From: Malus domestica
Taxonomy: Eukaryota; Streptophyta; Magnoliopsida; Rosales; Rosaceae
Assembly: GCF_042453785.1 (NCBI RefSeq)
Contig: NC_091663.1
Span: forward strand, 37,841,001 to 37,905,000
Length of the DNA stretch: 64,000 nucleotides
Direction of reading: 5' to 3'
Of the stretch, positions 35,128 through 61,253 are shown piece by piece. The translations under genes were made by a program, and so were the position numbers. How positions within the stretch are numbered: the first letter of the stretch is position 1; each line of letters opens with the position of its first letter. The notes below the pieces were generated by a model. The model had not been told where the DNA came from, made no database searches, and worked only from the letters and a program-made list of their open reading frames with translations.

Positions 35128-35154
35128 TGGAATGGAATGCGCTGACTTGGTAAG

Positions 35155-38100
35155 TCAATCTACAATCACCCAAACGCCATCAAATCCATTTCGGGTACGA
35201 GGAAGTTTATACACGAAATCCATGGTTATATTTTCCCATTTCCACTGGGGAACGGGAAGTGGCTGCATTCGCCCAAAGGGCTTCTTTCTTTCCGCTTTAA
35301 CCTGCTGGCAAATAATACATCTACTCACATAATCTGCAATTTCTCTTTTCATACCCGGCCAATAATAAAATGGTCGAATGGTATGATACATTTTTGTTCC
35401 TCCCGGGTGCATCGCATAAGCTGAACAATGAGCTTCATCCAGAATTTCCTTATTCAATTCCTCATTATTCGGAACATACATTCTGTTTTCTTGCATGAGC
35501 ATACCATCAGATTCCCGAATTCTGAGGTCTTTCTTTTTCCCTCCACTTCTTAACTGAACCAACTCCTGAATTTCTTCATCCACCATCTGAGCTGCAAGTA
35601 TACGATCCACCAAAACTGGCCTGACTTGAAAACTAGCAAGAAAAGCTCCATCTCGGTTTTCAAATTCCAACCTTACCCCCGTTGTCCTCAATTCAGCAAG
35701 AAGAGGAACACGACTAGCATATAAGGCATTAAGCCTACCTTGAGGTTTCCTACTCAGAGCATCTGCTACCACATTAGCACGACCTGGATGATACTCAATA
35801 GTACAATCATAATCACTTAGCAATTCCATCCACCTTCGCTGACGAAGATTAAGATCATGCTGAGTAAACAAATACTGAAGACTCTTGTGATCAGTGAAGA
35901 TCTTACACTTCTCACCATACAAATAATGCCTCCAAATCTTTAAAGCAAAAACAATTGCTGCCAATTCAAGGTCGTGAGTAGGATAATTTCTTTCATGATT
36001 TTTCAACTGCCTAGAAGCATAAGCAATCACCTTATTATGCTGCATCAAAACACATCCCAAACCATTTAACGAAGCATCACTATAAATCTCAAAATTACCG
36101 CTATCATCAGGGAGTACCAACACCGGTGCATGGGTGAGGCAATACTTCAATTGCTGAAAACTCCGCTCACAATTCTCATCCCACTCAAATTTAACATCCT
36201 TCCTGGTCAACTTTGTTAACGGTAAAGCAATCATAGAGAAATCCTGAACGAACCGTCGATAATAACTTGCTAAACCCAGAAAACTGCGTACCTCAGTGAC
36301 GGTTCGAGGTTGCTCCCAATTCTCCACCGCTATTATCTTTTGAGGATCAACTTGAATTCCTTGAGCCGATACAACATGCCCCAAAAATGCCACTTCGGAC
36401 AACCAAAACTGACATTTACTGAACTTGGCATACAACTGATGCTCCCTCAATTTCCTTAACACCAAATTAAGGTGTCGGATATGATCTGCTTGAGATTTAG
36501 AGTATACCAGAATATCATCAATAAAAACAATAACAAATTTATCAAGATATTTCTGGAATACCTCATTCATCAATCTCATAAAAGCTGCAGGTGCATTAGT
36601 CAACCCAAATGGCATAACAAAAAATTCATAATGTCCATACCGAGTCCGGAAGGCCGTCTTAGGTACATCATCTTCCTTAATCTTCAATTGGTAATACCCA
36701 GATCTCAAATCAATCTTAGAAAATACACACGCACCTTTCAGTTGATCAAACAAATCATCAATACGAGGCAATGGATAACGGTTTTTAATCGTTACCCGGT
36801 TCAATTGCCTATAATCAATACACAATCGCAGAGTTCCATCCTTCTTCCTCACAAATAATACTGGGGCACCCCAAGGTGAAGAACTAGGTTGAATAAAACC
36901 CTTATCAAGTAATTCTTGCAATTGAATTTTCAATTCTCTCAACTCAGCAGGAGCAATTCTATAAGGAGTTAGGGATATAGGGTCAGTACCTGGAAGCAAA
37001 TCAATAGTGAATTCCACCTCCCTGTCTGGTGGCAATCCCGGCAAATCATCAGGGAATACGTCCGGATAATGTCTGACCACACCAACTTCTTCTATACTAG
37101 TAGGGGCAACATCATTTAACACCACATGCGCCAAATATCCCTGGCAACCTTTCGATAACAATTTCCTCGCCCTTAAGGCAGAAATAACCCCATGTCTCAC
37201 CCCACTTCTCTCGCCCACAAAAGTAACCTCGGGTAATCCAGGACGATAAAAAGTAACTGATTTACCATAACAATCAATATGGGCACGATTATGGTGTAAC
37301 CAATCAGCCCCTAAGATCACATCAAAATCCACAATATTTAACGGAATAAGATCAGCGGACATAATCACGCCCTCAACCATCATTGGACACCCAAGATACA
37401 CACTATCCACATAACATTTATCTCCTCTAGGCATGGCGAACTCTAAATCAAATCCTAGAGGTGAAGGGTGAGGTTGGGTCATTTGAGCAAACGTATGAGA
37501 AATCACAGAGTGCGTAGCACCACAATCAATCAAAACCTTAGCAAAATGACCAAGAACATTTAACGTACCCATGATCAAGTCTGGATGGTTCTGAGCCTCC
37601 TGCAGAGAAATATGATTAACTCGTCCCTGAGCTTGATGACGTCCACCTCGGCCTCTACTGCCCTGATTACCTCGTCCCTGAGGATTACGCCCCTGGCCTG
37701 GCTGACTAGGCTGCCTGGATGATCCTACACCACCAGTAGCAACTTCCCCCTGACGGGGCTGACCTCCCTGATGCCACTGCGATCCACCAGCTGGCATAGA
37801 GGAATAAGATGAATAACCTCCAAAATCCTGAGAATACCCAGCCTGAGAATAAGGCTCCTGGGAATACTGATAAGGTCCGGGAGCATACGGAGCAGCATCC
37901 CCTTGATAGTGGTAGGCACCACCACGACTCGGCTGGCCATAACTGCCTGATCCAAAACTCTGTTGAACTGGTGCTGGAGGTGGCATAGTGGTCTGCTGCG
38001 GTCTCTGCTGACCCTGGGGGCACTGAGAAGCCCGATGTCCCATCTGCCCACACGTAAAACAAGCACCAGTACCTCTCCTACACTCACCATGGTGACGGAA

Positions 38101-39018
38101 GTTACAACGGCGGCACCATGGAGCGCCAGATCCACCAGCACCACCAGAATCCCTCTGACCCTGAAACCTGGGTCCACCAGAAAATCTTCCACCACCTCTC
38201 CTCGGGCCAGTAAAACTATATCCCCCACTAGAAGAACTCGAACTCGCTCCACTCTTCTTAAAATTCTGTGTCTGCCGAGGTCCCGGAATGGAGATACCCT
38301 TACCTTTATCATTCTTCTTTTGACCCTCATTCTTGTCCTCATCATCCTCACTGTCAGGAAGATTATCAGAGTCCTCCATCCTAACCAAAATCTCGAAATA
38401 CTCATGATAATTAGCGCAGGGGAGTGCATTGGCAAAGGTACGCCACTTCTTCTTAGATCCCAACTTGAAACGTCGAAGCATCTCTCCCTGATTACCAGCT
38501 ATATCAGGGTCATAACGAGACAAATCAGTAAACCTTCTATAATATTCATGTGCCGACATTTTTCTCTGTTTCAACCTGGTGAATTCCTGTTTCTTACGAT
38601 CAATATACTCAGGAGGGACGAATCTCTTCATAAAATTCTCTTTGAACACTTTCCAGTCGGCTGCCGTCTCAGGTGACATGTACCTAGTCTGATTCATCCA
38701 CCATGCTGCTGGTTCACAACCCAAAAACCAAGTGGTGGTCTCCACCCACCTATTAGCAGGGAGATTCCCCTGACTCTGCATCACCTGGAAGGTCTTCTCA
38801 ATATGATCTAGCCATTTCTCTGCCCCCTCATGACTTTCATTACCCATAAACCGATCTAACTTCAAGTTGTACATGGTCTCCAGAGGTGTCCTCGGAGGAG
38901 GGGGAGGACGAATCACATTCTGTAAAGCCTGGGCCATCGCTTCCCCTAGCTGAGTAATATCCGGGAAATTAGGTTCAGAAGTACGGCGGGACTCCCTACG
39001 CTCCCTACGAGGTGGCAT
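35155..39018 (-). CDS. Chromovirus gag-pol polyprotein (to the premature stop)
   Basis: Residue numbers count from the first in-frame Met at 39039; the likely start is MPPRRERR at residue 8 (39018). Gag capsid region about 75-220. Zinc knuckle [14 protein letters not shown] at 327-340 (CX2CX4HX4C), preceded by a Cys/His cluster at 309-320. Gly/Gln/Tyr-rich linker to 470. Protease IDCGATHS at 504-511. Reverse transcriptase about 690-900 with FIDD at 839-842. RNase H from about 984 (IYSDAS) to 1100. Integrase zinc-binding HX6H (1204, 1211) and CX2C (1241, 1244), first catalytic Asp at 1274. The frame ends at TGA after VWVIVD, where relatives read on. There is no frame break between gag and pol. 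Only this element's own mobility is implied; no host role. Confidence 0.93.
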
Positions 39019-39082
39019 GATTCTGACAGAAAACATCAAAAGATCGTTAAGACATTAACAAATTTACAGGACTGCAACCTAA

Positions 39083-41294: not shown

Positions 41295-42756
41295 CTTATG
41301 GAAATAGTGTACCTAATTTGCAAATGATGGATTGACTACAAGTTCATCTAATTGTGAAATGAATTGGAGAACTTTTGAGGGGATACGTTAAAAAAAAAAA
41401 AAACTAGATACAACAACGTTAAATAATTTAGTCTATGTCCAATTCAATGCAAGGATCATGAACAAGAAGAATTTAGTCTATCATCCATGAGTACTCCTCA
41501 TTATGATTATATGCTTATTGTTTTTTAAATATTGAACTTGTTGGATGGATGTATTTTGTGTATTCTTTTACTTAAATACATTTAAGATATACAAAAATTA
41601 CAAAAGATGCCATTACAGTTGGCATCTTTAAATGATACCTCATTTCTCATATTTTTCATATTTTGAAATAGGTCAATACGAACACTGTTTTCTGATTATG
41701 GTATTATTGGATTTAGACGCTGTGTTGCAGTATCCATTTTCTGGTTCTATTTTTTTCCATCACTCAAGTGCCTTCTATTCTTCACACCTCATGCAATTCC
41801 TAATTTTGGATTTGGATTCAAACACTGCAACGCAGTGTGCAGTGTCTATTTTTACTTTTGGATTCAGAATGCAGTGTCTGTTTCCTATTTCTTTTTGTTT
41901 TTAGCATTTTAATTCATATACTGCATTGCAATGCCTATTTCCTAGTTCTTTTTTTTTCTTTCTTTCTTTTTTCATTTTGATTCTAACACTATGTTGTAGT
42001 GTTCGTTTTCTGGTTCTATTTTTTTTTAATAAAACACGAATCAATAGTTATCGTAGAGTTTCCAACCTCCGCCCCCACCCATCTTTGCTTTCTCCTCAAT
42101 CCTTCTCTTTCTATCTCATTCTCCCTCTCTATTTTTCGTTCTAATCCTCCCTTACGTACGAGAATGACACTATAAATTGTCGTCAACCACCCCTGGGTTT
42201 TGATCAGAAGTTAGCGATAGCAAATTTGAAAGTTGGACTTGTCATCGATCATCTTTGGGCTCCATAACGAGATAAGAATTGAAGAAGAGAAAGTGAAGAG
42301 TAAGAGGGAGAAAATTAATAGGGTGTCACCGGAGAAATTATCACCGTTGATGGAGATGGGTCGTTGTCGGAAGTTCATGGTGGCACATAGTGGGTGGTTG
42401 CTGTGAGTTTTTGGTGGGGGCTAATATTTTCGAATTTCTGTATCACTTTTGAGAATTGTAATAGACAAGGTATTTTTTCAATCGAACTATTTATTCTGGT
42501 TAGATGGATGAGAGAGAAAGATAGAGAGGCAGGGAGAGGAGAGATAAACATGAGAGAGTGAAGAGAAAGATGGGAAGAGAGAGACATGATAGAAAATCGG
42601 AAGAGAATGAAGTAAAAAAGGACGAGAGAGTGGGGCAGATAAGGAATAGAATAAAGTTAAGAGAGAAGGGTATAATAATTGTTTTATAACTAACTTAAAC
42701 TCATGTGACATGATTCATGGACCTATGCATAATTATTATAAATATTTCATGATTAT
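41295..42756. repeat. Spacer with degenerate repeats (about 41690-42035), no gene
   Basis: Four imperfect units between 41690 and 42035 each combine CACTG(T/C)..TGCAGTGTC with TTTTCTGGTTCTATTTTT. The short frames there come from these T-rich repeats. 42480-42640 is a GA-rich purine stretch. No gene or RNA was recognised. Confidence 0.55.
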
Positions 42757-43732
42757 TGTGAACACGGAAAATTCCTGAAACGAAAGAGACAAGAACAACG
42801 TGCACAAACAAAATATTTGTATTTGATGATTTTGGGTTACAATCTCTCTCTATTTTGATCTTCTGATTCGATCTCCGTAAGGTGTGTATTTGTGGATGTG
42901 CGATTGATCCAAAGGGCTGTTGGGCTTGATCTAAGGATGAACGTTCTTTAAGGGCCGTGGACTTGATCTTGAAGGTGGATTTGAGCGGATCTTCAAAGGG
43001 GCTTTTGGGCTTGATCCTTGAAGAACAGTGATGAACGGATCTCCAAGGGCTTTTGGGCTTGATCTTGAAGAACAGTGATGAACGAATCTCCAAGGGCTTT
43101 TGGGCTTGATCTTGAAGAACAGTGATGAACGGATCTCCAAGGGCTTTTGGGCTTGATCTTGAAGAACAGTGATGAACGGATCTTCAAGGGCTTTTGGGCT
43201 TGATCTTGAAGAACGGTTGGATGTGTGGATTTGTCGACGTTGTTGATCCAAAGGGCCGTTGGGGCTTGATCTTGGATGAACGGATGATGAACGATGGTGC
43301 TTTCTTTAAGGGCCGTCGGGGCTTGATCTTGAATTGGTGGATGGTTGATCCAAGGGCCGTCGGGGCTTGATCTTGGAAGAACGATGAACGAAGAACGAAG
43401 AATGCTTTCTTGATTCTTCGGGAACTTGGATGCTTGAGAGCTTCGGAGTTTCAGAGCTTCAGAGCTTCAAGGTGTAATATCAATTCGTTTCCTCACATGA
43501 ATGAATTAGCCTTCTATTTATAGAAATTTCCAAGGCCTAATTTTGAATATAATATTCCAGATGAAATAAGTCGTTTCTGCCAGGTGTTGACACATGTCCT
43601 GTTTGATGACTTTTCCAATTTATTTCGATTTTTTGTTTAGACACACGCTACGTGTAAAATTTATGTAATACATGAGCGTTGAAACTTTGATTTATCGGTC
43701 AACATTTATTTACCAAAATTTCGATGTCTACA
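42757..43732 (-). repeat. 3' LTR of the pol-less element, with 47-bp tandem units
   Basis: Contains four tandem 47-bp units (GAAGAACAGTGATGAACGGA plus a TCTCCAAGGGCTTTTGGGCTT-type half), against three in the other LTR. A 24-bp insertion near 43435-43465 makes up the rest of the 71-bp length difference. Many scattered copies of GGGCCGTNGGGGCTTGATCT also occur. Confidence 0.93.
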
Positions 43733-45790
43733 AATGCCCCCACTTCAAGGCGCGTCGTATACATGTGCTTGTCACGTGTAGGAGATGCGTTTTGAAGTCC
43801 CTTAATGTAGATGTCGATCCAAGGGCCGTTGGGGCTTGATCTTGAATTGGGCTGGAAATTTCTTCAAGGGCCGTTGAGGCTTGATCTTGAATTGGGTTGG
43901 AGATTTCTTCAAGGGCCGTTGAGGCTTGATCTTGAATTGGGTTGGAGATTTCTTCAAGGGTCGTCGAGGCTTGATCTTGAAGGTTGAAATTGGACCACAA
44001 GGAGCTTCATGTGGTAGATGATCTTTGGCTTTGGTAGTGGATGAATCGACACGTATTTTGTTGCGCTTGTTGACTTTCCACAGCTTTGATCTTGAACTGG
44101 GTTGGAGGATTTTCTGGATTCCTCCAATTGTTGATTTTCTACAGCTTATTCTTGAACTAGGTTTTGATTTAAGGGTGGTAGACACTTGATCTTGAATCGG
44201 ACTTGTGATTTCTTCAAAGGCCGTCGAGGCTTGATCTTAAATTTGGCCGGAAACTTCTTCAAGGGCCGTTGAGGCTTGATTCTTGAAGGTTGACTCGAAC
44301 ACATGGCAAGCAGGCACGAGGTGAAGGTGACGACTTGTTGCTTTGTTCAATCTTTCTAATTCACACCTAAGCAGTTTGGTCAACGGTATGATCTTCAAGA
44401 TTGATGGGCTATTCTTCCAGTTGGTGACTTGATCTTTAAGGATTTGATTCAAGGGTGGTGAATCGGCACGTGCAGCCCACAACGCCTAGTAAGTCGACCC
44501 AAGAATTTGAGGGTCAAAACGAGTTCACCGTCCAGAGTGATTGCAACCCTGATGATATGAGATACTTTTGATTTTGAAGAAGTAGCGGATGACTCAGCAC
44601 GTGCTTTGTTGCACCTGTCTCCACATGCTTCAAATGTTCCTTTAAATGTTCCTCAGGCAGATGCGGCATCTTCTCGAGTTCTTCATCTCAGACTCCTTCT
44701 GATGAGTTGACTGTGCATGCTGCATTCTTCTCTACTTGTTTCTTCAGGCAGATGTGGCAGCTTCTCGAGTTCCTCAGTTCGGACTCCTTCTGCTGAGTTG
44801 ACTGTGCAGACCGCATTCTTCTCTGCTTGTTTCTTCTGCACGTTGTCTCCACATGCTGCAAGGTATCATTTTCACTTGCATTTATCTGTTCTTCAGGCAG
44901 ATGTGGCAGCTTCTTTGGAAGTACAGCAGCAGTGGGAGACGAGTACTCGAGAGCAATGCTAGGTAGGCAATCAGGGAAGGGTTCCCAGCAGTCGGTTCCT
45001 TACTCGAGTTTGAGTGGAAGTTCCGGCATATTGTTTTCTTTATCCTTGTCTTTGTAGGTAGGACAAGGACAAAGGAAAGGACAGGGAGAACGCATGATAT
45101 GAGATACTCTTGCTTTCTACCCTGGTGATATGAGATACTTTTGCTTTGGAGTCATTGGCTTGTAGAGGTACCCCAAGGAATAAGGAACACTGAGTGACCC
45201 GAGAGGCTTCGTTGGGAAGGCATTCTCGGAGATAAAGAAAGGTTCTGTATGTCCACCTTGCTATGGAAGGTGAAGGTGGACAGTTATAGGAAGTTCTTTG
45301 ATACCTGTAGAGGTACTATTCTTTCACTCGTGTCGGCAACCAATGCGTGATTGAACAGTAAACTTCACGTGCTTTCTCCTTCACCGAAAATCTTTGACAA
45401 ATTGCCCGTGATTTGCGCAAAGTTGAGTGTGCATATGACAGGTGTTTGACGAGGTTGAAAAAGACTGGCGCCTCTTCGATATCTGGGATCGGCGCTTCGA
45501 CAAATTGCCCGTGATTTCCGCAAAGCTGAGTTTGCGTGTGACGGGTGCCGACGCTTCTGGAAAAGCAAGATGCTTCTTCGATTTCTGAGCTTGCCTCTTT
45601 GATTTTTGAATGGCCTCTTCGAATTCTGAGCTCGCCTCTTCGATCTCTGAAATCCCATCGAGTGCTGATTTTTTTATAGAGGCACGCTGTTCGTTTCAAA
45701 GCACACTTGAATTTTCGCTTGTGAAAACTCCCTTCTTGCACTTCTAAGATCTTGATTTGTCCGATCTCTTCTTTCTTCAACACTTTGAAA
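43733..45790. repeat. Internal repeat-rich region of the pol-less element
   Basis: Three repeat sets are seen. At 43815-44000, about four 57-bp units carry TTCAAGGGCCGTTGAGGCTT, the motif also amplified in the LTRs. At 44650-44915, units of about 100 bp carry CAGATGNGGCA, CTTCTCGAGTTC and GAGTTGACTGTGCA. At 45405-45545, a unit of about 110 bp is doubled (CAAATTGCCCGTGATTT). Frames across the region are repeat-driven. It lies upstream of the plus-strand ORF at 45791 and may hold its promoter. Confidence 0.75.
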
Positions 45791-46459
45791 ATGTCTGGAC
45801 CCTCCGACCGTCGTTTTGACTTGAATCTTGGTGAAGAGGCAGTCCCGCCTTCTCCAGACAACATATGGCGCCCATCCTTCATATCCCCTACTGGTCCTCT
45901 TACCGTTGGGGATTCGGTGGTGAAGAATGATATGACCGCTGCGGTGGTGGCTCGAAACCTTGTCACTCCCAGAGATAACAGACTACTTTCCAAACGGTCT
46001 GATGAGTTGGCTGTTAAGGATTCTCTGGCTCTCAGTGTGCAATGTGCAGGTTCTGTGTCTAATATGGCCCAAAGCCTATTTGCTCGGACCCGTCAAGTTG
46101 AATCATTGGCGGCTGAAGTGATGAGTCTCAAACAGGAGATTAGAGGGCTCAAGCAGGAGAATAAACAGTTGCATAAGCTCGCACATAGCTATGCGACAAA
46201 CATGAAGAGGAAGATTAACCAGATGCAGGAATCTGATGGTCATATTTTACTTGATCATCAGAGGTTTGTGGGTTTGTTCCAGCAGCATTTGCCTTCGTCT
46301 TCTGGGGCTGTACCGCGTAATGAAGGTCCAAATGATCAACCTTTGGCTCCTCTTCTTCCTGGAGTTCCGCCGAGTGGTGTGGCTTCAAACAGTCAACCTC
46401 CGGCGCCTCTCATTTCTGGAGCTCTGTCGAGTGGTGAGGCGGCACCTGATCGTCCTTGA
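45791..46459 (+). CDS. Antisense accessory ORF of the retroelement, 222 aa
   Basis: A complete frame opposite in orientation to gag. It starts MSGPSDRRFDLNLGEE; the ATG at 45791 is chosen over one 39 nt upstream because the conserved-looking start begins there. A predicted coiled coil covers about residues 100-145 (VESLAAEVMSLKQEIRGL, then a Lys/Gln/Glu-rich continuation). The tail holds two or three Pro/Leu-rich repeats (QPLAPLLPGVPPSG, QPPAPLISGALSSG). No catalytic motif is visible. I recall closely similar ORFs recurring in Rosaceae genomes, consistent with a transposon-borne gene. Antisense extra ORFs are known in Tat-lineage elements, but their function is unknown. An A-rich tail with AATAAA-like words follows at 46530-46555. 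Confidence 0.75.
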   Translation: MSGPSDRRFDLNLGEEAVPPSPDNIWRPSFISPTGPLTVGDSVVKNDMTAAVVARNLVTPRDNRLLSKRSDELAVKDSLALSVQCAGSVSNMAQSLFARTRQVESLAAEVMSLKQEIRGLKQENKQLHKLAHSYATNMKRKINQMQESDGHILLDHQRFVGLFQQHLPSSSGAVPRNEGPNDQPLAPLLPGVPPSGVASNSQPPAPLISGALSSGEAAPDRP

Positions 46460-46582
46460 AGATCCCCTCTTGTAAATTTGATTTGATTTTTTTTTAAGTA
46501 TGTATAATGCAAATTTATGTAAAATTTTCAGAAAAAATAAATAAAAACGGACTTTATTTCTCTTAATGCTTTTTTTTTTTTG

Positions 46583-46584
<2 letters not shown>

Positions 46585-46626
<42 letters not shown>

Positions 46627-46664
46627 CACACACATATATATATATATATATATATTATACACAC

Positions 46665-46702
<38 letters not shown>

Positions 46703-46966
46703 CATATATATATACACACACACATATATATATATATATATATTATTTTTTTTTCGCGTGGAGTGATCCACCATCCCAAAACCCATTTTCCCTTTGTTTT
46801 TTGCATGGTGCTAGCCACCAAGAATCCACCTTCTCTTTTTTTTATTTTATTTTATTATTTTATTATTTTTTCGTCTGCTTTCACATGGTGCTTGATCCAC
46901 CATTCCCTTTTTTTTCACGTGGTGCCAGATGCACCACCACCTCTTTTTTTTTATTTTTTTTATTTT

Positions 46967-46997
<31 letters not shown>

Positions 46998-47000
46998 TTT
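46585..47000. repeat. (TA)n/(CA)n microsatellites and T-rich repeats
   Basis: 46585-46745 is almost pure TA with CA interruptions, and 46973-46997 is a second TA run. Between them four degenerate copies of a word like CACGTGGTGC..GATCCACCA are separated by T-rich tracts. Open frames of alternating Tyr/Ile residues are artefacts of the TA repeat. Confidence 0.92.
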
Positions 47001-47044
47001 TTGTTTTCTATATAAATTTGGGTGACGGGATGAGGAATTTGTAA

Positions 47045-47671
47045 GAAAGGATGAAGACGATGGAGATGCTGCAGTCGAGGCTTTATGACCGGCTAGTCGT
47101 TTGACGGCGGTTATTGAAGCTCTCCGCCGTTTGACATTTGCCACTGCCATTACACAACCATTGCTCCGCCACTGCATTCTTGCTACCTTGCACTGCCGCC
47201 ATTGCACAGCCGCTGTACTGCCTGCCGTCGCAAAGGAAGGGATCATATTTGCAACTTGGGCGCTTCCCACCAGACCACCAAGCGTTGCCACAAGACCCTC
47301 GAAATCCACCTCCATGAAGGGACTCGCCAAGCCGTTGCTGTTCATGGTGGAGTCAAAGACCGTATCGCCAAACTTGAGCTCCTGTGAGCTGTCGGACGTG
47401 GTGTCGCAGCTCACCCAACCTCCAGGGTCTCAACCTTTCCAGGTGCTTCAGCTACAGAAGCTATCTTATCTTCCAGTGCTGGCATTTGGTTAGTAGAATC
47501 GGGCATTTCTGGTATTTGATGAGAGGATGACTCACTCTTCCGAGATTGCAGTCCAGTAAAGCGTGCAAGATCAATCCATTGCTGAGTTCCCCAATATGAG
47601 TTTATTGTCCGAGAAACAAAAGACAGCAGATTCACAAGTAATGTTTGAGAAGCAAACTCGTTAGAAATTCG
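47045..47671 (-). other. Segment of unknown origin inside the element
   Basis: Minus strand 47671-47411 keeps an open coding-like frame (with [20 protein letters not shown] and later [19 protein letters not shown]). It joins directly to the carboxylase fragment but does not resemble that enzyme. It may be a third captured exon. 47400-47101 gives another coding-like frame (SQELKFGDTVFDSTMNSNG). I cannot identify either. Confidence 0.4.
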
Positions 47672-48597
47672 ATGCTCTAGTGTAGCAGCTGTGAAACGCT
47701 GGAGTGTTCTAAAACACAAGAGCTCCTATCCAAACGACTGCTCAATGACTTCACCTTGGACAGTGACACGGAGTGAACCATAAATTGTATCTGGTGGTTG
47801 AGACAATATAGCAAGATGGGTGGGACCACCTCCCATTCCAACAGTGCCACCACGACCATGGAACATAGTTAGCTTCACACCAAATTTCTTAGCAACGTTG
47901 ATAAGCTCCTCCTGTGCCTTGTATAACTGCCAGGCTGCAGAGAAACGCCCTGCATCTTTACCAGAATCTGAGTACCCAATCATGACTTCTTGCGTTCCGT
48001 TGATCCGCTCTCTATACCAATCAATCGAGAAAAGCCGTGACAAAGCAGCAGGAGCAGCCTCCAGATCTGCAAGCTTCTCAAACAGTGGAACGACTCTATA
48101 ATGGTTTCTTCACGTGGCATTCACGTTGCAGGAGCTCAACTGCGAGCACATCAGATGGAGCAGTCGCCATTGAGATGATGTATGCTCCAAAGTTATCAGA
48201 TGGAAGTTCTGATATCACATGTAATGTGTCCAAAACATCAGAGATTTCTTCCGTTTTTGGAAGATCAGGACCAAACAGTGGGCGCTTGCCACATAATTCA
48301 GATAAAAGCCACTCCTGACGGCTTTCTTCAGACCACTCACGATAGGAACCAATTTCCAGATGCTTGGTGATGGCGTCTATCACATCAGTATGCCTGTCAG
48401 ATTCTTGCCTAATATCGAGCTTCACAAGTGAAAGTCCAAAGGTGGACCCTTGCCTTAAGAAATCAAGAAGTGACCCATCAGCAATTGCTCGGTTACCACA
48501 AGAGCAGAGTGATATGTAGCAGGGTTCGAGAGGTTCCAAGAACTGCTCAACACTGATCAGTGTTGCCTCCTCCGGAATGTCAGAGTGCCCACTGGCA
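47672..48597 (-). pseudogene. Phosphoenolpyruvate carboxylase gene fragment
   Basis: About 300 codons from the C-terminal half of plant-type PEPC, starting near SDIPEEAT and ending at [15 protein letters not shown]. Landmarks: [79 protein letters not shown]. The coding frame is broken: one extra base after HVKKPL near 48096 and an altered, stop-containing join near 47726. The glycine-rich catalytic loop reads [12 protein letters not shown], where plant enzymes have Arg in place of Met. Both ends of the enzyme are missing. The region corresponds, as I recall, to one large exon in plant genes, so it does not show whether capture was from DNA or RNA. Confidence 0.92.
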
Positions 48598-49010
48598 TCA
48601 CCTCATCGTGGTGGGCGAAGTAGTTGTTGGAAATCGTGATTCCGGTGGACCCATGATGGCGTCGATCAGTCCGTCGGCGCAGAACGAGAGGGAGCAGTGG
48701 TCGATCTAGATTTTGCGAGCGCCGAAGAGGGAGATGCCATCGCCGTCCGATTTGCCGCGCCAGCCAACGTGGGTGGGGCTGGAGGCGATGTTGGTTGCTG
48801 GCGGGCTTGCAGTGGTGCACGTGGACGTTGACGCCGTGGCCGTCGATGGTCTTGAAGCTGTTGACAATGAGCTCGTATTTGAGCTTAGTGGTCATGTCGG
48901 CCGAGAAGATGATCCAGAGGGGTTCGTTTTGGATGACGGCGTGGCGGAGCGTGCCCGGAGTTGGGTTCGCTGGGTTGGAATCGGAGGAGTCGGTGACTAT
49001 GTAGATCAGG
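48598..49010 (-). pseudogene. Pectate lyase gene fragment
   Basis: The minus-strand frame from about 49010 reads YIVTDSSDSNPANPTPGTLR, PLWIIFSADMT, ELIVNSFKTIDGHGVNVHV. After a frame change it reads THVGWRGKSDGDGISLFGA, a stop, then IDHCSLSFCADGLID and [17 protein letters not shown]. These are successive blocks of a plant polysaccharide lyase family 1 pectate lyase. About 17 codons are deleted where NVHV joins HHCKPAS; both sides carry a NVHV-like repeat, suggesting slippage. Frameshift, stop and missing ends make it non-functional. It abuts the carboxylase fragment at about 48597. Confidence 0.9.
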
Positions 49011-49578
49011 CTGAAGACATGAGGGAAAGAAGGAGCCAAGTGGGCGAGGAAGTTGATGGGCCCATATGTCATGGGTTTTTGAGCTGAATGAGGATGGGCC
49101 ATGGGATTTGTCTGGACCATTGTTGGTGCTGGACCGAGACATACATATATATATATATATGTTTCATTTTCCTTATTTCCTTTTTTTCTTTTTGAAGAAA
49201 TTGTATTTTTTTATTTTTTTTAATAAAATTGACTCTATTTAATAAAACATTTTTTTTTAATTTTGATGTGACTGAACTTGAAATTGAATTTTCAAGCTGC
49301 CTACTTACCCTTCCAAAGAAAGAGATCAAGTCAAAACGTAGTTCAAATACATACATATTTTTTTTTGGTATTTTTTTTTTTTTTGTGCCGTTTGCAGTTT
49401 CAGCTCATGCAGGCAAGGAGCATTTGGTGCTGTGTTGCAGTTTCAGCTCGTGCAGGCAAGGAGCGTTTGGTGTCGCCCTTTATGTTCGTGCGGATCAGGA
49501 GCGTTGTGCCATGCAGTTTAGACTCGTGCGAACAATGAGCATTGGTGAATTTTGTCAAGCAATTTTGGAGAGGCGTTC
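49011..49578. other. Region between captured fragments and gag
   Basis: Contains a TA run (49143-49162), T-rich tracts and, at 49394-49560, three degenerate copies of a unit with TGCAGTTTCAGCTCGTGCAG and GGAGCGTTTGGTG. No pol remnants recognised. Confidence 0.6.
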
Positions 49579-51471
49579 CTAACAATCTTCATAGCAAGGA
49601 GCCTTGACCGAATGATTGAAGAAGTCTTCAGGAAAGAAATCGCGCATCGTGATGGGGATGGACGGTCTATGTGTCGAAATTTCATCATCTTCAACACGTT
49701 CACGTTGCTTTGAAGGTTGACAAGAGCTGCTTTGCCCCCTTTCCGATTGGCGGACTTGTGGAGGAGACGTATGCTTCTTGTGCAATTTCTTAGGAGTGAC
49801 TCGAGTCCATCCTTCAATTTTGCTTGTCTTGGAGGATGCCCCCAGCGGTTGAGGTGAAAACTTTGAGTTGGAAGAGCCAGAAGTGAAGGTGGTATAGTTT
49901 GACTTCACCACATCGTCAAGATCTAGCTCGATGATTCCTTTCTGAGCCAGCTTCATGATGAGATCTTTCAGCATGAAACATTTTTCCGTCGGATGACTGA
50001 TGAAGCGGTGGAATTTACAGTACCTTGGACTGTCAGTGCAATTCATCTCTTCTGGCCGTTTGCACTCAGGCAAACTAATCACCTTCTTTTCCAGCAAGTC
50101 TTCTAACATGGCAACCACATCAGAGTCGGGGAATGGATAAGTCCTCTCCTTAAGCTCATTCAAAGTGCGTCTACGCATCTCTTGATCACGAAAAGCTTCG
50201 GTTTGAATCGCCTTGCCTCGTGTAGGGATTTTGACGGGAGCTGTGTGGACTGTCATTACTTCCTTGGTGGGTTTCCACGCAGTCTTCTCCAACTTTGGCC
50301 CAAGAACTTTGTCGTTCTTGTAGTCGGCGATCGGTTCTTTCTTCCCATGATGGGCGATGCTCAACTCCATGTCATGGGCGCGAGTGGCCAATTCCTCGAA
50401 AGTCAGTGGTTTAATGCCTTGAAGGATGTATTGCAAACCCCATTGCATGCCTTGGATGCACATCTCGATTGAAGAGGTTTCCGAGAGCCTGTCTTTACAG
50501 TTGAGGCTTAGAGTGCGCCATCTGTTGATGTAGTCAATGACTGGCTCGTCCTTCCACTGCTTTGTGCTCGTTAGCTCTAGCATGCTCACAGTGCGGCGGG
50601 TGCTATAGAAGCGGTTGAGGAATTCCCGCTCCAATTGTTCCCAGCTGTTGATGGACTCAGGTTCTAGGTCCGTGTACCACTCAAAGGCGTTTCCTTTCAG
50701 CGAGCGCACAAACTGCTTGGCAAGGTAGTCTCCCTCCGTCCCCGCATTGTTGCAAGTTTCGACGAAATGTGCAACGTGCTGCTTTGGGTTTCCTTTTCCA
50801 TCAAACTGCATGAACTTTGGTGGTTGATATCCCCTTGGCATCTTTAGGGCATCAATCTTCTTTGAATAAGGCTTTGAGTACAACCCGGAGGTATTTGAGC
50901 TCCCTTCGTACTGTGCCTTGACGGTGCTGGCGATCATCTCCTGCAGTTGCTGGATAGAAAGAGATCCCATGAGTGCCGTTGCTTGGTCTGGCTCCGGCTT
51001 CACATCGATATTCTCCACCGGAGGCTCATCTTCTGGGTTAGGGTTATTGTCGTCCTGTGGCTCCAGTCGGCTGATGAGTGCAGCGATTTGCAAGTCTTTT
51101 TCTTCCACAGTTCGGGTTAGCCTTGCGATTGCTTCATTCATTTGAGCCAGCTGCTCATCGATTGAAGTTGCTCCAATGGTCATGACTTGCATGGCTGAAC
51201 TGCTACTCGAATCGGCATCGGAGAGCATGGATTCAGAGTATTTCCTTGGACTTTCGCCCCTTGGTGCCTTTGGCGAGGCTAAGGTGATCAAAGGCTCGTG
51301 CCTTGGGTGCTCTTGTTCCCTTGGCAGAGTTGATGCAGAGGTGAAAGAGGCGGCAGAAGTAGCTATTGCCTTGCTTCGAGTCGTGATGCCTAAAGTGACA
51401 CCACTTGCGACGAGGATGCTCTTGTTCTTTGCGCCAGTTGCGGGAACAGTTCGAGCCTTCCTTGATGCCAT
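49579..51471 (-). CDS. Gag protein of the pol-less retroelement, 630 aa
   Basis: The only intact element protein in sense orientation. A Ser/Thr-rich N-terminus is followed by a coiled coil at about 105-137 (EQLAQMNEAIARLTRTVEEK) and an acidic Pro-rich linker (138-162). The capsid-like retrotransposon gag domain spans about 205-375 (PPKFMQFDGKGNPKQHVAHF, GNAFEWYTDL, WEQLEREFLNRFYS, QGMQWGLQYILQGIKPLTF). A Cys/His motif at 485-498 (CKFHRFISHPTEKC) resembles the unusual zinc motif of Ogre/Tat and Athila gags. There is no protease downstream. The start 79 bp from the 5' LTR leaves a very short leader. The conserved frame suggests selection for gag packaging function, or recent descent from an active family. 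Confidence 0.9.
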   Translation of the reverse strand: MASRKARTVPATGAKNKSILVASGVTLGITTRSKAIATSAASFTSASTLPREQEHPRHEPLITLASPKAPRGESPRKYSESMLSDADSSSSSAMQVMTIGATSIDEQLAQMNEAIARLTRTVEEKDLQIAALISRLEPQDDNNPNPEDEPPVENIDVKPEPDQATALMGSLSIQQLQEMIASTVKAQYEGSSNTSGLYSKPYSKKIDALKMPRGYQPPKFMQFDGKGNPKQHVAHFVETCNNAGTEGDYLAKQFVRSLKGNAFEWYTDLEPESINSWEQLEREFLNRFYSTRRTVSMLELTSTKQWKDEPVIDYINRWRTLSLNCKDRLSETSSIEMCIQGMQWGLQYILQGIKPLTFEELATRAHDMELSIAHHGKKEPIADYKNDKVLGPKLEKTAWKPTKEVMTVHTAPVKIPTRGKAIQTEAFRDQEMRRRTLNELKERTYPFPDSDVVAMLEDLLEKKVISLPECKRPEEMNCTDSPRYCKFHRFISHPTEKCFMLKDLIMKLAQKGIIELDLDDVVKSNYTTFTSGSSNSKFSPQPLGASSKTSKIEGWTRVTPKKLHKKHTSPPQVRQSERGQSSSCQPSKQRERVEDDEISTHRPSIPITMRDFFPEDFFNHSVKAPCYEDC

Positions 51472-51550
51472 TAATTTTGGAGGCGTGCTCGAATTTCTTG
51501 AACGGAGAAAGAGATGAGAGGTAGAGATGATCCCACTGGGCGTGCCAATT
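51472..51550 (-). other. Leader and primer-binding site of the pol-less element
   Basis: Immediately after the 5' LTR the minus strand reads AATTGGCACGCCCAGTGGGA. TGGCACGCCCAGTGGGA is a candidate primer site. Its form (TGGC..CCA.TGGGGA-like) resembles non-initiator tRNA sites known from Tat-type elements; the exact tRNA is not assigned. Confidence 0.6.
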
Positions 51551-52455
51551 TGTGAACACGGAAAATTCCTGAAACGAAAGAGACAAGAACAACGTGCACA
51601 AACAAAATATTTGTATTTGATGATTTTGGGTTACAATCTCTCTCTATTTTGATCTTCTGATTCGATCTCCGTAAGGTGTGTATTTGTGGATGTACGATTG
51701 ATCCAAAGGGCCGTTGGGCTTGATCTAAGGATGAACGTTCTTCAAGGGCCGTGGACTTGATCTTGAAGGTGGATTTGAGCGGATCTTCAAAGGGGCTTTT
51801 GGGCTTGATCCTTGAAGAACAGTGATGAACGGATCTCCAAGGGCTTTTGGGCTTGATCTTGAAGAACAGTGATGAACGGATCTTCAAGGGCTTTTGGGCT
51901 TGATCTTGAAGAACAGTGATGAACGGATCTTCAAGGGCTTTTGGGCTTGATCTTGAAGAACGGTTGGATGTGTGGATTTGTCGACGTTGTTGATCCAAAG
52001 GGCCGTTGGGGCTTGATCTTGGATGAACGGATGATGAACGATGGTGCTTTCTTCAAGGGCCGTCGGGGCTTGATCTTGAATTGGTGGATGGTTGATCCAA
52101 GGGCCGTCGGGGCTTGATCTTGGAAGAACGATGAACGAAGAACGAAGAAGGCTTTCTTGATTCTTCGGGAACCTGGATGCTTCAGAGCTTCACGGTGTAA
52201 TATCAATTGGTTTCCTCACATGAATGAATTAGCCTTCTATTTATAGAAATTTCCAAGGCCTAATTTTGAATATAATATTCCAGATGAAATAAGTCGTTTC
52301 TGCCAGGTGTTGACACGTGTCCTGTTTGATGACTTTTCCAATTTATTTCGATTTTTTGTTTAGACACACGCTACGTGTAAAATTTATGTAATACATGAGC
52401 GTTGAAACTTTGATTTATCGGTCAACATTTATTTACCGAAATTTCGATGTCTACA
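51551..52455 (-). repeat. 5' LTR of the pol-less element
   Basis: 905 bp with three 47-bp tandem units. Against the 3' LTR I see roughly a dozen substitutions besides the two unit-sized indels, so it is clearly older than the chromovirus insertion. Confidence 0.93.
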
Positions 52456-54399
52456 ATTATGTCCATAAATAAAATTGACCATTGATATATGGCTAATTAG
52501 TAAAGTTTTTATTGACATTTGGCCAAACATCCTTTTTATTTTTTAGAATTTGTGAATTTTCTTGTTTGGTTAACCTAAAAGAACAATAGAATTAGATATG
52601 GAGTTTGTTATATTTAAATTATCAATCACGGAAATTGGGAGATGACACTTATTTACATGGAATTTAAACTTGGGAACTTAAGATCCCAAATTCCAAGTTT
52701 GTTTTCTATGCGGAAATTCTAAATTTCTATGTTTATGAATCTAAACAATGAAATTGGTGCATATCAATTTATAAATTCCAACTTTTACCCAAATTTCATG
52801 TTTATTTCCCTCATCAAACATAGTTACCCAAACAGATGATTTATTTCGACTCTCAAATGGATTATGAGTGATTTTATTTGTACTCATATAACTTCATTCT
52901 ACAACCAACTTATTCTTTACACCTATATTATTTTAATGAAAGAATTAATCTTTCTTTAAACCCAAATTTACTACCTAAACTATCATCATAAACTCAATTT
53001 AAAATGTAAATTTCTCTTTACACCCATTTAAAAAAATAAAATCTCAAATTGAATAATTTGATGAAGTTTCCTCTCTCTACACCCTTATTGTTTGTATCCA
53101 TGTCCCCGTAATTTTATTTGAATAAGCATAAAGCACTATAGCGTGCTTTCGTTAATGTAATACAGTTGATGTAGTACATCACTATAGTGTATAGAAATTA
53201 ATAGAATTTCTTGAGTTGATATGCCCCATTTTCTGGAGTTGCGTCTATATATGCATGGCGTCTCCTATGGCTACTTTGCTACTTTCATTCAAATTGTTCA
53301 ATATTTTTGAAGAAAAGAAATCTCAATGTATATAACAATCTATCAAAAACGCATTTTGTCAATTTTCAGCATTGATGGTTGTGAATTGAAACTTAAAAAC
53401 TCATATTCTCAACTCTAAAAAAAATTGAACATAAACAAAAAAAAAAAATTGTATAAATCGATTCATACCTTAGCTGAAGGATTCAAAACTTTAAAATCAC
53501 CATTCATCGATTAAAAAAACTTGTTTTTCTCTGTAGGGCTCTTAAGGTTTCAGCCATAATAAACGTAGAATAAACATTGCGTGATGGTATAATTTAATTT
53601 TTAATTTCTTTTAATAGAAAACTTCATTCTAATCCTTGACAAATATGACTTTTAGACTAAAACCATGGGTAAGATCAAAATATAATTTTAGTCCCTTGAT
53701 ACATTAATAACCTAATTTATTAATTACATTTTGATTTTTTAATTATTTCTCATTTCTTCCTAATTTTAATGTATTAATTTTATTTCATTATAATTATAAT
53801 TTTCATTTCATTTATCGTAATATGTTTTGTTGTAAACATTTAGATAAACTAATATTTGTTATACAATATATTTCAACGTACATTGTCTTCTTCATTTAGA
53901 TATATTAAATTCAATATAATACATTTCGGTGCATAAATTTAGATACACACATTTTGGTACATACATTTCGATACAAACATTTAGGTACATTAATTTAATA
54001 TAATACATTTTGGTACATACATTTCGGTGCATACATTTCTGTATACACATTTAGGTACATTAATTTAATATAATATATTTCAATGCATATATTTCAGTAA
54101 ATACATTTCGGTACTAACATTTAAATACATTAATTCAATATAATACATGTCGCTGCTAACATTTAGGTACATTAATTGAGTCTTTCAAGTTTGAAGAATG
54201 GTAAATAAAATTAATAAATTAAAAAAAAACTTTTCTTTGGTTAAAAAAAAACTTTTTTTGGTCAAAAAATAAATTAAAATTTGTATATTAATAAATTTAA
54301 ATATCTAATGGGAGACATTAAATAAAATGCACATTAATTATTTTGAATTAAGGACACATCAAGGGACTATAATCAATATGTAATCTAACACTAGGTTTG
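52456..54399. repeat. AT-rich spacer with two repeat blocks
   Basis: 52545-52805 is the second copy of the dispersed repeat also found at 19700-19950. 53870-54190 is a degenerate tandem array of words such as ACATTTAGGTACATTAATTT, AATATAATACATTTCGGT and GCATACATTTCGGTACA. No gene was recognised. The rest is low-complexity sequence. Confidence 0.6.
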
Positions 54400-57300
54400 T
54401 AACATCCCACATCGCCTAGGGGAGTGGATCCTGTAAACACACATTGAGTTGTTTTGGGTTGCATCTTAGTGGTATTATAGGGTTTTAAAAGAGGATAGCA
54501 TGCACAACCAAAGATTTTAAGATGAGAAATCTGAGAAGGTCAACCAAAAAGACATTTATATGGTGAAAACATGTGCAAGGTTTGACAGGGCATTCAATTA
54601 ATAAGGTACACATAAGCAGCACAAGCATGAAACCAATACTTAGAGGGCATGGAAGCATTTTGTAAAAGGGTGATAGTAGTTTCTAAAATATGTCGATACT
54701 TTCTTTCTGCAAGACCATTTTGCTCAAGGGTGTAAGGGCATGATTTTTGATGAACTATACCCTTGTCAAGCAAGAAATGTTTGAACTGATTACTTGAGTA
54801 TTCACCTCCTCCATCACTTTGAAAGGCTTTGAGATGGGTAGAAAATTGAGTATTCAAAAACTGATCAAAGTGAACAAAAATATTGAACACTTCACTTTTA
54901 TTTATCAATGGAAAGATCTAGGTAAACCTGGTATATTCATTTACAAATGTAACATAGTATTTGTAACCTTCAACTGAAACAGTAGATGAAGGTTCCCAAA
55001 CATCATTATGTATCACCTCCAAGGGTTTTACAGTTTTATTTGCAGGGAAAACAAAAGGAAGCTTTGTAAATTTGCCCTCTAAACATGATTTACAAACTGA
55101 AGACACATGAGAAACAGGCATAGGTATATTGGATTGTTTTAACATTGCAGATGTCACAATGTTGGAAGGATGTCCTAGCCTGTGGTGCCACACCGTTATT
55201 TTGACTTGTTGTCCAAGAAAACATGATTGTGTTGAAGTGAATGCAGATGGTTGTTGTGCTTGATTGATGAGATGTTGTGGAATGTAGAAGGGAATGGGAT
55301 ATAAGCCAGCTCTACACAGTCTCTGGAGAAGGATTCTCCCTGTGACCTTGTCCTGGATACAGTAAGAGAACTCATCACATATAAATCTACATTTGTTATC
55401 CTTACTAAATCTATAAATGGATAATAAATGTTGAGATATACGAGGAACATGTAGAATTTTCTTCAATTCAAATGCATATTTAGGTGTCCTTAATGTACTG
55501 GAGCTAATATGAGAAATATGCAAACCTGAACCACTAGCTGTGGTTACTGTATCTGTGCCAGAGAATGGAGTGACAAGATTAAGGTTTGCCAAATCAGAAG
55601 TCATGTGAGATGTTACACCTGTATCAGCCACCCAAAACTGTTCTTGAGGTGCTGATGGTTGAAAAGTTGTATGCATAGCAGATAGATTGGAAGATGTAGC
55701 CCTTCCTTGGTATGAGAAATCAGTTATGTGATAACATTGCAAGACAGTATGTCCAAATTTCCAACAGATTTGACACTGTGGCTTGGAGGATGGAGTAGTG
55801 GTGGATGAATGTCTCTAGAAGCAGTCAATAGTAATGTGACCTCGTTTGTTGCAAATTTGGCAGGTTGGAATATCATAACCATGATCGGTACATGTAGAAA
55901 CATGTGGTTTTCCTGGACCAAGAATTCCTGCTTTGGAATTTGAAAACCCAGAATTGAGTCTGTTATTAGAATTATAGTTGGTTATGCCTCTTCCTCTTCC
56001 TCTATAATTGGAACTGTACCTTCCATTATGATTAGAAGAGCCACCATTATAAGTACCAGTGCTGGTTGATCCACTAGGATAGTTTTGTGATTGAGATTGA
56101 TTAGACCATTCTCCCAACATCAGAGCCTTTCCTTTGTCTTTTTGCTCATTTGCCATCATTGCAGACACAAAGGTTTCACTCACAGAATTATTTTCAACAA
56201 CTGCTTCTTCTGCTAATAGCTGGGACCTAAAATCCTTGAGTGAAATGACATTGTCTCTCCCCCTTATAACTGTTCGAAAAGTATTATACTCAGCAGGCAA
56301 GCCTTTAAGTGCCAAAATTACAATGTCATCATCTTCAAAGATCACTCCTGTAGTAGAGAGATGATCCCTTACATCCTTGATCCTTTGAAGATATTGAGAG
56401 AATGAATCATAACCTTTCTTTACATTCTGCAACTCAGTTTTCAACTGAAAAATACTGGCTTTCGTGACTGTGGAGAACCTATCCTTCAAATTAGTCCACA
56501 TATCATGAGAAGTGAGACAACCAATGATACAAGACATGGCTGTGGGAGATAGTGTAGCAATGATCAACTGCATAAGAGCACGATCAACTGCATAAGACCA
56601 CGATCATGCATTTTCCAAATCTGAAACTCCTCAGTTTCAACACCTTCAACATCCGAATCATCTTTAAATCGAGTAGGACATGGATGAGTGCCAACAACAA
56701 AGTCAAAGATACCATGACTTTCAAGAAGTAATCGAATTTGATAGTTCCATACAAGATAATTTGTATCATCAAGCTTCACAGTAACAGAATTAGAGACATT
56801 CGTAATGAGATTCGTGATCGGAGACTCTACAATCTGTAATTGTGCAGCAATCACCATATTTGCAGAGATAACTATGCAAGAATTTGAGAATTTGTGAAAA
56901 AGATCATAGAATTAGGGTTTCAGAAAGAGGAATTGTGCAAAATCACAAAGAATTCAACTTGTAGAGATCTTGGAAACTGATATCAATGCAAACAGATCTT
57001 GTAAGAAGCAATTAATTGAACACTTGGTGTGCACAATCATGCATATACTTCACAGAACAACTTTGTAGATACACAAACGCACAGAGCTATGGAGAGAAAA
57101 AAAAAAAGAGCAGAAATTCACACCAGAACATATTGATCAGGAATGCGGAAGCAAAAAAAAAAGCTCAAGATCGAGAAATCTTCATCCCCGGCGAGGATAC
57201 CATGTCAGAATACAAAGAAATTCTTGTTCATCATATGTGTTCTTGATAGAGAGAGAGAGATTCGAGAGAATAGTAGTTTTTAGAGAGAGAAAAGAATTAT

Positions 57301-58130: not shown

Positions 58131-58527
58131 TGCAGTATATCTTTGCAACTTCAAGGGTAAATATTTTCAGGCCTCGCTTCTTCCTCTCTGGCAAGTCGTA
58201 TTTTTAAAATGCCATGATATGTTTCAACCGGTGCGCCATATGGTACGTATATGTGTGGTTTAAACCTAATAGGTTGCCGCCCGTAACAAGAATCTTATTT
58301 TTAGAGAATTGTTTTGCAGGTGCATGATTAGAGCATAATGATAGGAAAAGCAGTTGCCGTAAATGCTATTTCTGGTATAATTTGCACAACGACCTCGTTT
58401 ACTCAACATCTAATTAAAACACAACATTCCTTCCCCCTCTCTCCCTAACCTCCTTGTTCCTATTCAATTTTATTGTCTTTCCTCTTCTACCTCTGATAAA
58501 GAGAAAGGGAAGTGAAGAGAAGAGACA
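58131..58527 (+). promoter_or_regulatory. Upstream region of the PMEI gene
   Basis: A mixed spacer, then a CT-rich then GA-rich leader (about 58425-58527) directly before the start codon. No clear TATA box is visible by eye. Assigned by position. Confidence 0.35.
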
Positions 58528-59070
58528 ATGGAGCTCATCAACAGCCGCATCCTCCTCGTAATCATATCCATATCTTCTCTCCTCTTCTCTTCCGGTCAAG
58601 GCTCATCAGCCCCAATCCCACAAGTGGATGCGGCTCTTGAAAAAATCTGCGCAAAAACTGATAACCCTGTTCTTTGCTCCAGCACCATCCTTCCTTTTGA
58701 ACACGGTGCTGCCGACCCTATCAGCGCGCTTCAGATAGAGATTAAAGCATGCTTGAACCGCATGCAACAGGCCCTCGCCCAGTTCAAGAAGCTGGGTGGC
58801 CTTTCCGCATCAGATATGTCGACTGTCCAAGTATGCCAAGAAGAATACGAATCCGCAGTTGATGACCTCAACGGTGCTACTGATGCGATTGTCGCACACG
58901 ATGTCGGCACAATACAAACCAGGCTTAGTGGAGTGATTACCTATTTGGGCACGTGTGATGATGCCGTCGCTGAGTCTCCGGGGTTCAAGTTGCCCTTCAA
59001 GGATGAGGATGTTGTTACATTGCGTAAGCTGGCTAGCAATTGCATGGCCATCTCGACGCTGCTCCATTAG
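58528..59070 (+). CDS. Plant invertase/pectin methylesterase inhibitor-like protein, 180 aa
   Basis: The intronless frame starts with a signal peptide (about residues 1-28: charged start, hydrophobic ILLVIISISSLLF, small residues before the cut), so the product is secreted to the cell wall or vacuole. Mature Cys residues are 41, 50, 75, 103, 143 and 172. Cys41-Cys50 in CAKTDNPVLC and Cys103/Cys143 match the two disulfides of the PMEI four-helix bundle. Family length (about 170-200 residues), the start ICAKTDNP-LC and the spacing near YESAVDDLNGA fit well. Family members block pectin methylesterase or invertase; which one is targeted here cannot be read from sequence. It stands alone, with no operon-like or paired neighbour. 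Confidence 0.92.
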   Translation: MELINSRILLVIISISSLLFSSGQGSSAPIPQVDAALEKICAKTDNPVLCSSTILPFEHGAADPISALQIEIKACLNRMQQALAQFKKLGGLSASDMSTVQVCQEEYESAVDDLNGATDAIVAHDVGTIQTRLSGVITYLGTCDDAVAESPGFKLPFKDEDVVTLRKLASNCMAISTLLH

Positions 59071-61209: not shown

Positions 61210-61253
61210 TAAGAAAGTCTCACGACAACCCTAGAATTTTTTTTTCTCTCACC

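Follow-up and report, generated by a model that had tools for sequence, protein, structure and literature searches.

Among plant retrotransposons bounded by long terminal repeats (LTRs), TR-GAG elements are short, at ~4 kb, and carry gag without pol. In the available parts of two reports on the Retand group, antisense open reading frames (ORFs) are usual (PMC11963269, PMC7264820), and 10 of 63 Retand clusters lack at least one gag-pol domain (PMC11963269). We analyzed a 64,000-nt window of the apple genome (Malus domestica, contig NC_091663.1, positions 37,841,001 to 37,905,000), to which all coordinates refer, and within it an LTR element at 42757-52455 on the minus strand. The window lies on contig C3 of the genome that was searched (651 Mb in 19 contigs; contigs and family copies are named C1, C2 and so on). 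A sequence-only reading had described the element as a gag-only LTR retrotransposon with captured pieces of two host enzyme genes, taking gene capture by plant LTR elements as known in principle; maize Bs1 (PMC13317346) and pepper (PMC5664825) support that premise in the accessible portions of both papers. In our assessment, the locus is probably an insertion of a gag-only, Retand-like LTR family that loads spliced host mRNA by template switching and whose cargo cassettes are exchanged.

The precise ends proposed for the element were borne out. Paired TG..CA LTRs delimit 9,699 bp and are flanked by a 5-bp target-site duplication. As the element lies on the minus strand, its 5′ LTR is 52455-51551, and in element sense the order is 5′ LTR, candidate primer site, gag, a repeat-rich stretch, three host pieces, an AT-rich border, an antisense ORF, a spacer, a candidate polypurine tract and the 3′ LTR. 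The slot holding the host pieces is referred to as the cargo bay; PEPC stands for phosphoenolpyruvate carboxylase.

42752..42756, no strand: target-site duplication ATTAT, left copy
42757..43732, minus strand: 3′ LTR, 976 bp, containing a minisatellite of ~47-bp units
43733..43745, minus strand: candidate polypurine tract, sense AAGTGGGGGCATT, adjoining the 3′ LTR, assigned by eye
43746..45790, minus strand: long spacer from the antisense ORF to the 3′ LTR, with internal repeats
45791..46459, plus strand: antisense ORF, 222 residues, open, ATG at 45791, stop ending at 46459
46460..47050, no strand: AT-rich microsatellite border of the cargo bay
47051..47215, no strand: backbone border, common to many genomic places at 84-89%
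47216..47465, minus strand: older piece, perhaps cargo; matches reach 47477, the cut point of the C12 copy
47466..47667, minus strand: third gene fragment, parent C1:26409888-26410499, 97%, GT-AG intron of ~410 bp missing
47668..48596, minus strand: PEPC fragment, parent C3:32261098-32262157, 98.4%, GT-AG intron of ~130 bp missing, internal frameshift and stop
48597..49011, minus strand: pectate lyase fragment, parent C7:24374934-24375414, 96% at the DNA level, 63-nt deletion between TCCACGT repeats
49012..49578, minus strand: post-gag repeats
49579..51471, minus strand: gag, 630 residues, Pfam Retrotrans_gag 2.8e-14
51531..51550, minus strand: candidate primer-binding site, sense AATTGGCACGCCCAGTGGGA, assigned by eye
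51551..52455, minus strand: 5′ LTR, 905 bp
52456..52460, no strand: target-site duplication ATTAT, right copy

The two LTRs align with 894 matches and 11 mismatches in 905 bases (Kimura two-parameter distance, K2P, 0.0123), the 71 gap columns being one 47-bp unit and one 24-bp indel. At a rate of 1.3e-8, which is that of PMC5664825 and may not be apple's, this distance corresponds to an insertion age of ~0.5 million years. Both LTRs carry the minisatellite of ~47-bp units (CAAGGGCTTTTGGGCTTGATCTTGAAGAACAG...); the 3′ LTR is one unit longer, and similar units occur in the 3′ spacer.

The pectate lyase and PEPC fragments recognized earlier were upheld; they lie in gag orientation and meet at 48596/48597. 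For the PEPC fragment, the Pfam matches reached 1e-50 and 4.5e-64 and identity to the five best plant protein matches was 80-85%. Because it is 98.4% identical at the DNA level over 877 bases to a gene on C3 (95% to the C11 gene), chance likeness is excluded. Its frame is broken by a frameshift near 48100 and a stop at 47726. The pectate lyase fragment gave weak matches in protein searches (Jun a 1; P0293, Pfam domain Pectate_lyase_4) on account of frameshifts and the 63-nt deletion. What had been a possible third fragment turned out to be real: PDB and Pfam searches with it gave nothing useful, and its parent, a gene on C1, came from the genome search. The same search found no parent for the older piece (47216-47477), and ~49012-49145, adjoining the pectate lyase piece, may be another short cargo piece. 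Eight nucleotides are shared at the PEPC/third-gene join (TAGAGCAT) and two (GC) at the pectate lyase/PEPC join, the latter judged by eye as an exact-match script stopped earlier at a substitution. Malus protein records span these joins, P0145 the pectate lyase/PEPC join and P0241 and P0242 both, while P0169 has the pectate lyase and PEPC pieces behind a different start.

Alignment to the parents on C7, C3 and C1 revealed that the GT-AG introns of the PEPC gene and the third gene are absent to the base in the element, and these two pieces are therefore derived from spliced RNA. In the PEPC parent, the intron GTACTG...GTCTAG lies between GTTGAGCAG and TTCTTGGAACC, and the element reads GTTGAGCAGTTCTTGG. 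Many metagenomic plant PEPC fragments start at or just before FLEPLE, and the parent gene indeed has its intron at this point. For intron loss, the pectate lyase piece is uninformative. Exon-block mapping extended the pattern to two further copies. In the C15 copy, an aminopeptidase piece corresponds to seven exon blocks of one C15 gene with six introns gone, and a second piece (two blocks on C15) and a MATE piece (two blocks on C8) each lost one intron. In the C2 copy, RETICULATA maps as three blocks on C1 with two introns gone, and PB1 as two blocks on C13 with one gone. In total, seven fragments with multi-exon parents in three copies have lost introns, two base-exactly and five by exon-block pattern, and these seven are of complementary DNA (cDNA) origin.

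Several gene pieces in a row and in one orientation are typical of Pack-MULEs and Helitrons, and the cargo might in principle be such a nested DNA transposon, collecting gene pieces inside the LTR element. This is very improbable, because those elements copy genomic DNA whereas introns are gone here, because a simple scan gave no inverted match longer than 10 nt between the bay borders, because all seven CTRRT sites with a hairpin below -6 kcal/mol fall inside gene pieces, and because the cargo in this one slot varies from copy to copy. The bay was scanned for inverted repeats and CTRRT ends as Pack-MULE or Helitron termini, with nothing at the borders.

A search with the PEPC/third-gene block gave nine places besides the window. 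Five of the copies found contain the block, with the pectate lyase piece whole in C16a and C10a and cut in C10b, C17a and C16b. It is bounded by LTR pairs in C16a, C10a, C10b and C17a, and in C16b the 3′ LTR was seen. The spreading capture family suspected from the window alone thus exists, and the objection raised with it, that LTRs and captured block might never occur together elsewhere, falls. Target duplications are perfect in C10a (GATGT), C10b (GGGTC) and C17a (GAGAC) and have one mismatch in C16a (ATAAC/GTAAC); the LTR-pair K2P values are 0.0124 for C16a, 0.0185 for C10a and 0.0010 for both C10b and C17a. The insertions are recent. At the 29 PEPC sites that separate the homeologs, the six copies carry the C3 allele at 29, 29, 29, 29, 28 and 24 sites and the C11 allele at none, and at six PEPC sites every copy having a base there departs from the C3 parent. 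A single capture of the C3 PEPC gene, spread to several insertions, accounts for all six copies.

To see the bay apart from this block, we sampled 17 copies independently of cargo, five by the post-gag repeat (of 25 listed places) and twelve by the antisense ORF (ranks 2-13 of 40 scored among 3,867 first-look candidates); L036-L045 and the five post-gag picks were recognized without reading their LTRs. Pfam thresholds were E 0.01 for block-search and post-gag picks and 0.001 for antisense-ORF picks, in sense frames only except for C1. A host Pfam domain was present near the antisense ORF in 11 of the 17, and in eight of these 11 the gag side was also seen. Among post-gag picks, host domains lie between the post-gag repeats and the antisense ORF in C5 (KCS, WD40), C2b (HVA22) and C15 (aminopeptidase, MATE). 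Eight of the twelve antisense-ORF picks have one: L034 (photolyase), L035 (AAA), L040 (kinase), L041 (GH17) and L043 (subtilase), with the gag side seen, and L037 (kinase and thiolase), L042 (Sec15) and L044 (dioxygenase and PPR), where the 2.8 kb read stop short of it. The bays of L039 and L045 are nearly empty, post-gag repeats beginning 290-360 bp from the antisense ORF. Block-search copies add a P450 in C10b that is 98.6% the same in C17a. Among the others, C2 has PB1, IPO5-like and RETICULATA pieces, C12 has Rx_N and a weakly matching NB-ARC (E 0.001), C8 has a chaperonin, and C1 has DUF1191, a WD40 of WDR5 type and a REF gene in antisense. One slot is reused as a cargo bay with variable cargo. 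A single freak capture in one copy, without wider meaning, has a precedent in maize Bs1 as presented in the available part of PMC13317346; the five further block copies and the other host domains in 11 of 17 otherwise picked copies already refute it here, and we give it next to no credence.

In the C1 copy (L021, 2731-4919), an antisense REF/SRPP gene (Pfam 4.1e-81) lies between two parts of the WDR5-like cargo, as a nested or reverse-strand capture.

Shared cargo is mostly polar, adjoining the antisense ORF and truncated towards gag, with the exceptions given below. Outside C1, which shares only the backbone border and was left out of this count, the shared block cargo starts at the antisense-ORF side, and its gag-ward end lies at 47477 in C12 (within the older piece), just past 47667 in C2 (which keeps ~32 nt more of the third gene), at 48780 in C16b, at 48815 in C10b and C17a (one cassette) and at 49011 in the window copy, C16a and C10a. 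Another shared-cargo lineage is formed by L043 (C14) and L044 (C3), whose antisense-ORF-side 1,043 bp are common at 97.9%, with a subtilase versus a dioxygenase and PPR gag-ward of it, and the 1.8 kb of the C15 copy nearest the antisense ORF recur at C11:18491937. As first-strand synthesis runs from the RNA 3′ end towards gag, a jump to a new mRNA keeps the part already copied and cuts the part ahead, so that template switching would leave this polarity.

Most of the backbone is older than the cargo. In the C10b-C17a pair, the p distance is 0.006-0.010 for cargo, as compared to 0.079-0.080 for the LTRs, 0.045 for gag, 0.068 for the antisense ORF and 0.056-0.070 for the 3′ spacer, so that the higher divergence flanks the cargo on either side. 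The window copy differs from the five other block carriers by 1.2-2.4% in PEPC and from the four with gag by 5.8-8.8% in gag; the corresponding values are 2.2-3.8% for pectate lyase, 1.5-4.2% for the third gene and older piece, 3.2-8.0% for LTR parts and, for the antisense ORF, 1.7% (C10a) to 7.0% (C10b). Although constrained, gag has diverged further than the cargo, which is broken and presumably neutral. Because the cargo is younger than the backbones carrying it, it has been exchanged. Conversion could equally move cassettes between backbones, and in such a DNA-level scheme processed retrogenes made elsewhere would have been copied into the elements by recombination. We hold this origin to be unlikely, since no separate PEPC or third-gene retrogene was recognized among the matches listed (109 and 75 matches, 40 candidates scored of each), and since the microhomology at the joins and the usual polarity are what reverse transcription would leave.

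By its Pfam match (Retrotrans_gag), gag is of the Ty3/gypsy type. Gag, described as intact, is nearly so, its frame stopping 8 residues before the end of its relative P0002. Of the 537 relatives found, 120 were listed, most of them Malus domestica proteins with up to 93% identity; many of the listed matches have 638-654 residues, and one 90% cluster has 552 members. As the sequence-only reading claimed, pol is missing: sense frames of 43733-49578 contain no reverse transcriptase (RT), RNase H, integrase or protease domain at E<=0.1, and comparing the other elements of the window with the cargo element for pol fragments gave a best match of only E 0.58. The window copy thus lacks all four of the domains by which autonomy is judged. 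The antisense ORF has only weak coiled-coil Pfam matches. It was described as kept intact, and it is indeed open over its 222 residues, with a family ratio of nonsynonymous to synonymous substitution (dN/dS) of 0.23-0.39 (21 pairs, seven of eight copies, the broken frame of C16a left out). For gag, dN/dS is 0.17-0.35 in 10 pairs from five open gags of eight cut out, a comparison without the broken frames of C10a, C12 and L035 and without copies whose gag was not cut out. Both gag and the antisense ORF are under selection.

Pol-bearing relatives exist, some with the same antisense ORF and some able to carry cargo. With the protease-side part of a related gag protein from Malus as query, 150 matches were scored of 2,646 candidates, and 11 of these sit in open frames that are 2,300 residues long or longer. 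Near six of 40 scored antisense-ORF matches, a protease match lies in gag sense, five at ~5.3 kb and one at 3.1 kb, distances that by the C16b spacing leave room for pol and little cargo. At C16b (L013, C16:32842001-32851000) and at C8 (L022, C8:3783001-3793000), a more distant relative with a 70% antisense ORF, RT (RVT_1), double RNase H (RT_RNaseH and RVT_3) and integrase lie directly upstream of host cargo, the 5′ LTRs being outside the stretches read. A double RNase H is a trait of Tat elements. With pol upstream of cargo at C16b and C8, the bay sits between gag(-pol) and the antisense ORF, and pol loss is a separate matter. Of what had been proposed, capture by a gag-only LTR element, the spreading family and host fragments without pol in the window copy stand; the idea that the fragments simply replaced pol does not.

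The mechanism that we favor would work as follows. Reverse transcription of packaged element RNA would sometimes jump to a host mRNA and back, leaving a spliced host piece between gag (or gag-pol) and the antisense ORF. In later rounds, synthesis would start at the RNA 3′ end and copy older cargo first before jumping to a new mRNA, so that older cargo would tend to stay beside the antisense ORF, cut on the gag side. Finished cargo would pass as a cassette between diverged backbones, most simply via jumps between co-packaged element RNAs, and pol-less copies would obtain reverse transcriptase and integrase from pol-bearing relatives. We infer the packaging of host mRNA, the switching enzyme and the help in trans. 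More tentatively, and with somewhat less than even confidence, the bay may be a standing one that keeps sampling the host transcriptome, with differing spliced sets, older layers mostly 3′ and cassettes passed on to members that include pol-bearing ones. The family would then be a shared, recombining library of host cDNA, perhaps favored by its own gag or antisense-ORF protein.

Several observations weigh against this mechanism or narrow its base. Cargo parents were mapped for three copies and two joins were examined to the base. In the C2 copy, the two IPO5 blocks lie 52 bp apart, possibly by a deletion instead of a lost intron. The C10a antisense ORF is as close to that of the window (p 0.017) as the cargo is, so the exchange tract was not cargo alone, and the exchange could be DNA gene conversion. 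Polarity has exceptions: in C8, the pectate lyase piece, which again has the 63-nt deletion, lies gag-ward of the chaperonin; L034 and L036 have 220 bp in common (95%) in the gag-ward part of the bay; and C4:15395342 and C8:21491600 have no more than a middle part of the C15 cargo in common. Such exceptions could arise when synthesis jumps from one element RNA to another, yet they weaken the rule. Antisense cargo exists, as the REF gene in C1 demonstrates. No sense host domain was found in C13, C6, L036 or L038 at the thresholds used; L038 holds an ORF that we take to be a UDP-apiose/xylose synthase. The extra piece in C16b has no Pfam match, yet it matches the P0169 gene model, presumably AINTEGUMENTA-like.

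The captured pieces might act on their parent genes through small RNAs, and 614 of 857 PEPC 21-mers are exact in the parent. We consider such an effect quite unlikely, as sense transcripts alone do not make small RNAs and, the cargo frames being broken, nothing shows that cargo is kept by selection. For silencing tests, the family supplies a large natural collection of host-gene fragments, many of whose 21-mers are exact in their parents. Some chimeric gene models in apple annotations (P0145, P0241, P0242, P0169) may have their origin in this family. Host-gene pickup by plant LTR elements has so far been argued mostly from finished products; many recent copies with different cargo and mappable parents should provide a record of single jumps, from which the choice of template, the join sites, the direction and the exchange of cassettes can be counted.

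Elsewhere in the window, a long ORF on the minus strand at 28777-30657, open for 626 residues, presumably resembles a WRNIP1-type AAA ATPase gene. A second gypsy-type element (34177-39054) has gag-pol in a frame of 1,299 residues and its integrase side in a separate frame, and tblastn gave no real match between it and the cargo element. An 889-residue open ORF at 61161-63830 and further ORFs at 10084-11249 and 54918-56603 are presumably Copia-type, and we take a 184-residue ORF at 58516-59070 to resemble a pectin methylesterase inhibitor.

The window element resembles TR-GAG elements in having gag and no pol, and differs from them in its size of 9,699 bp, its cargo and its antisense ORF. Its antisense ORF lies between the gag-pol site and the 3′ LTR, the placement by which Retand elements are recognized. 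Like Retand elements (Ty3/gypsy), it has an extended stretch ahead of the 3′ LTR in which antisense ORFs and tandem repeats occur (PMC11963269, PMC7264820, in the parts available). The TRP28 domain (PF04195), given there for the antisense ORF of 97% of clusters, with two sunflower clusters lacking it (PMC11963269), was not found here at E up to 1 or 10. Those same parts report no host cargo in living copies, discussing transduction as a possible origin of the region (PMC11963269, PMC7264820), whereas cargo is present here. HODOR, a high-copy apple LTR element (KX869746), was compared by length only, 9,716 bp versus 9,699 bp (PMC6901071, PMC13334179, PMC8558331, PMC6445120, PMC11197308, each as far as accessible), and one consensus would not reveal a variable bay. 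Maize Bs1 likewise is an LTR element with fragments of three host genes; in the accessible text it is described for one element, whereas here the cargo varies through the family and is exchanged (PMC13317346). LTR-driven retroduplication in pepper, tomato, potato and rice has, as here, placed spliced host genes in LTR elements many times; according to the available part of that paper, elements without gag or pol hold ~72% of the retroduplicated NLRs (PMC5664825), whereas here gag and antisense ORF are kept under selection and the cargo is chimeric. Our literature search, with few subscription papers within reach, found no description of a family with a fixed bay, cargo differing from copy to copy and cassette exchange. 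Spliced-gene capture by LTR elements is known already; what appears to be new, as far as that search reached, is a cargo bay that is reloaded and exchanged.

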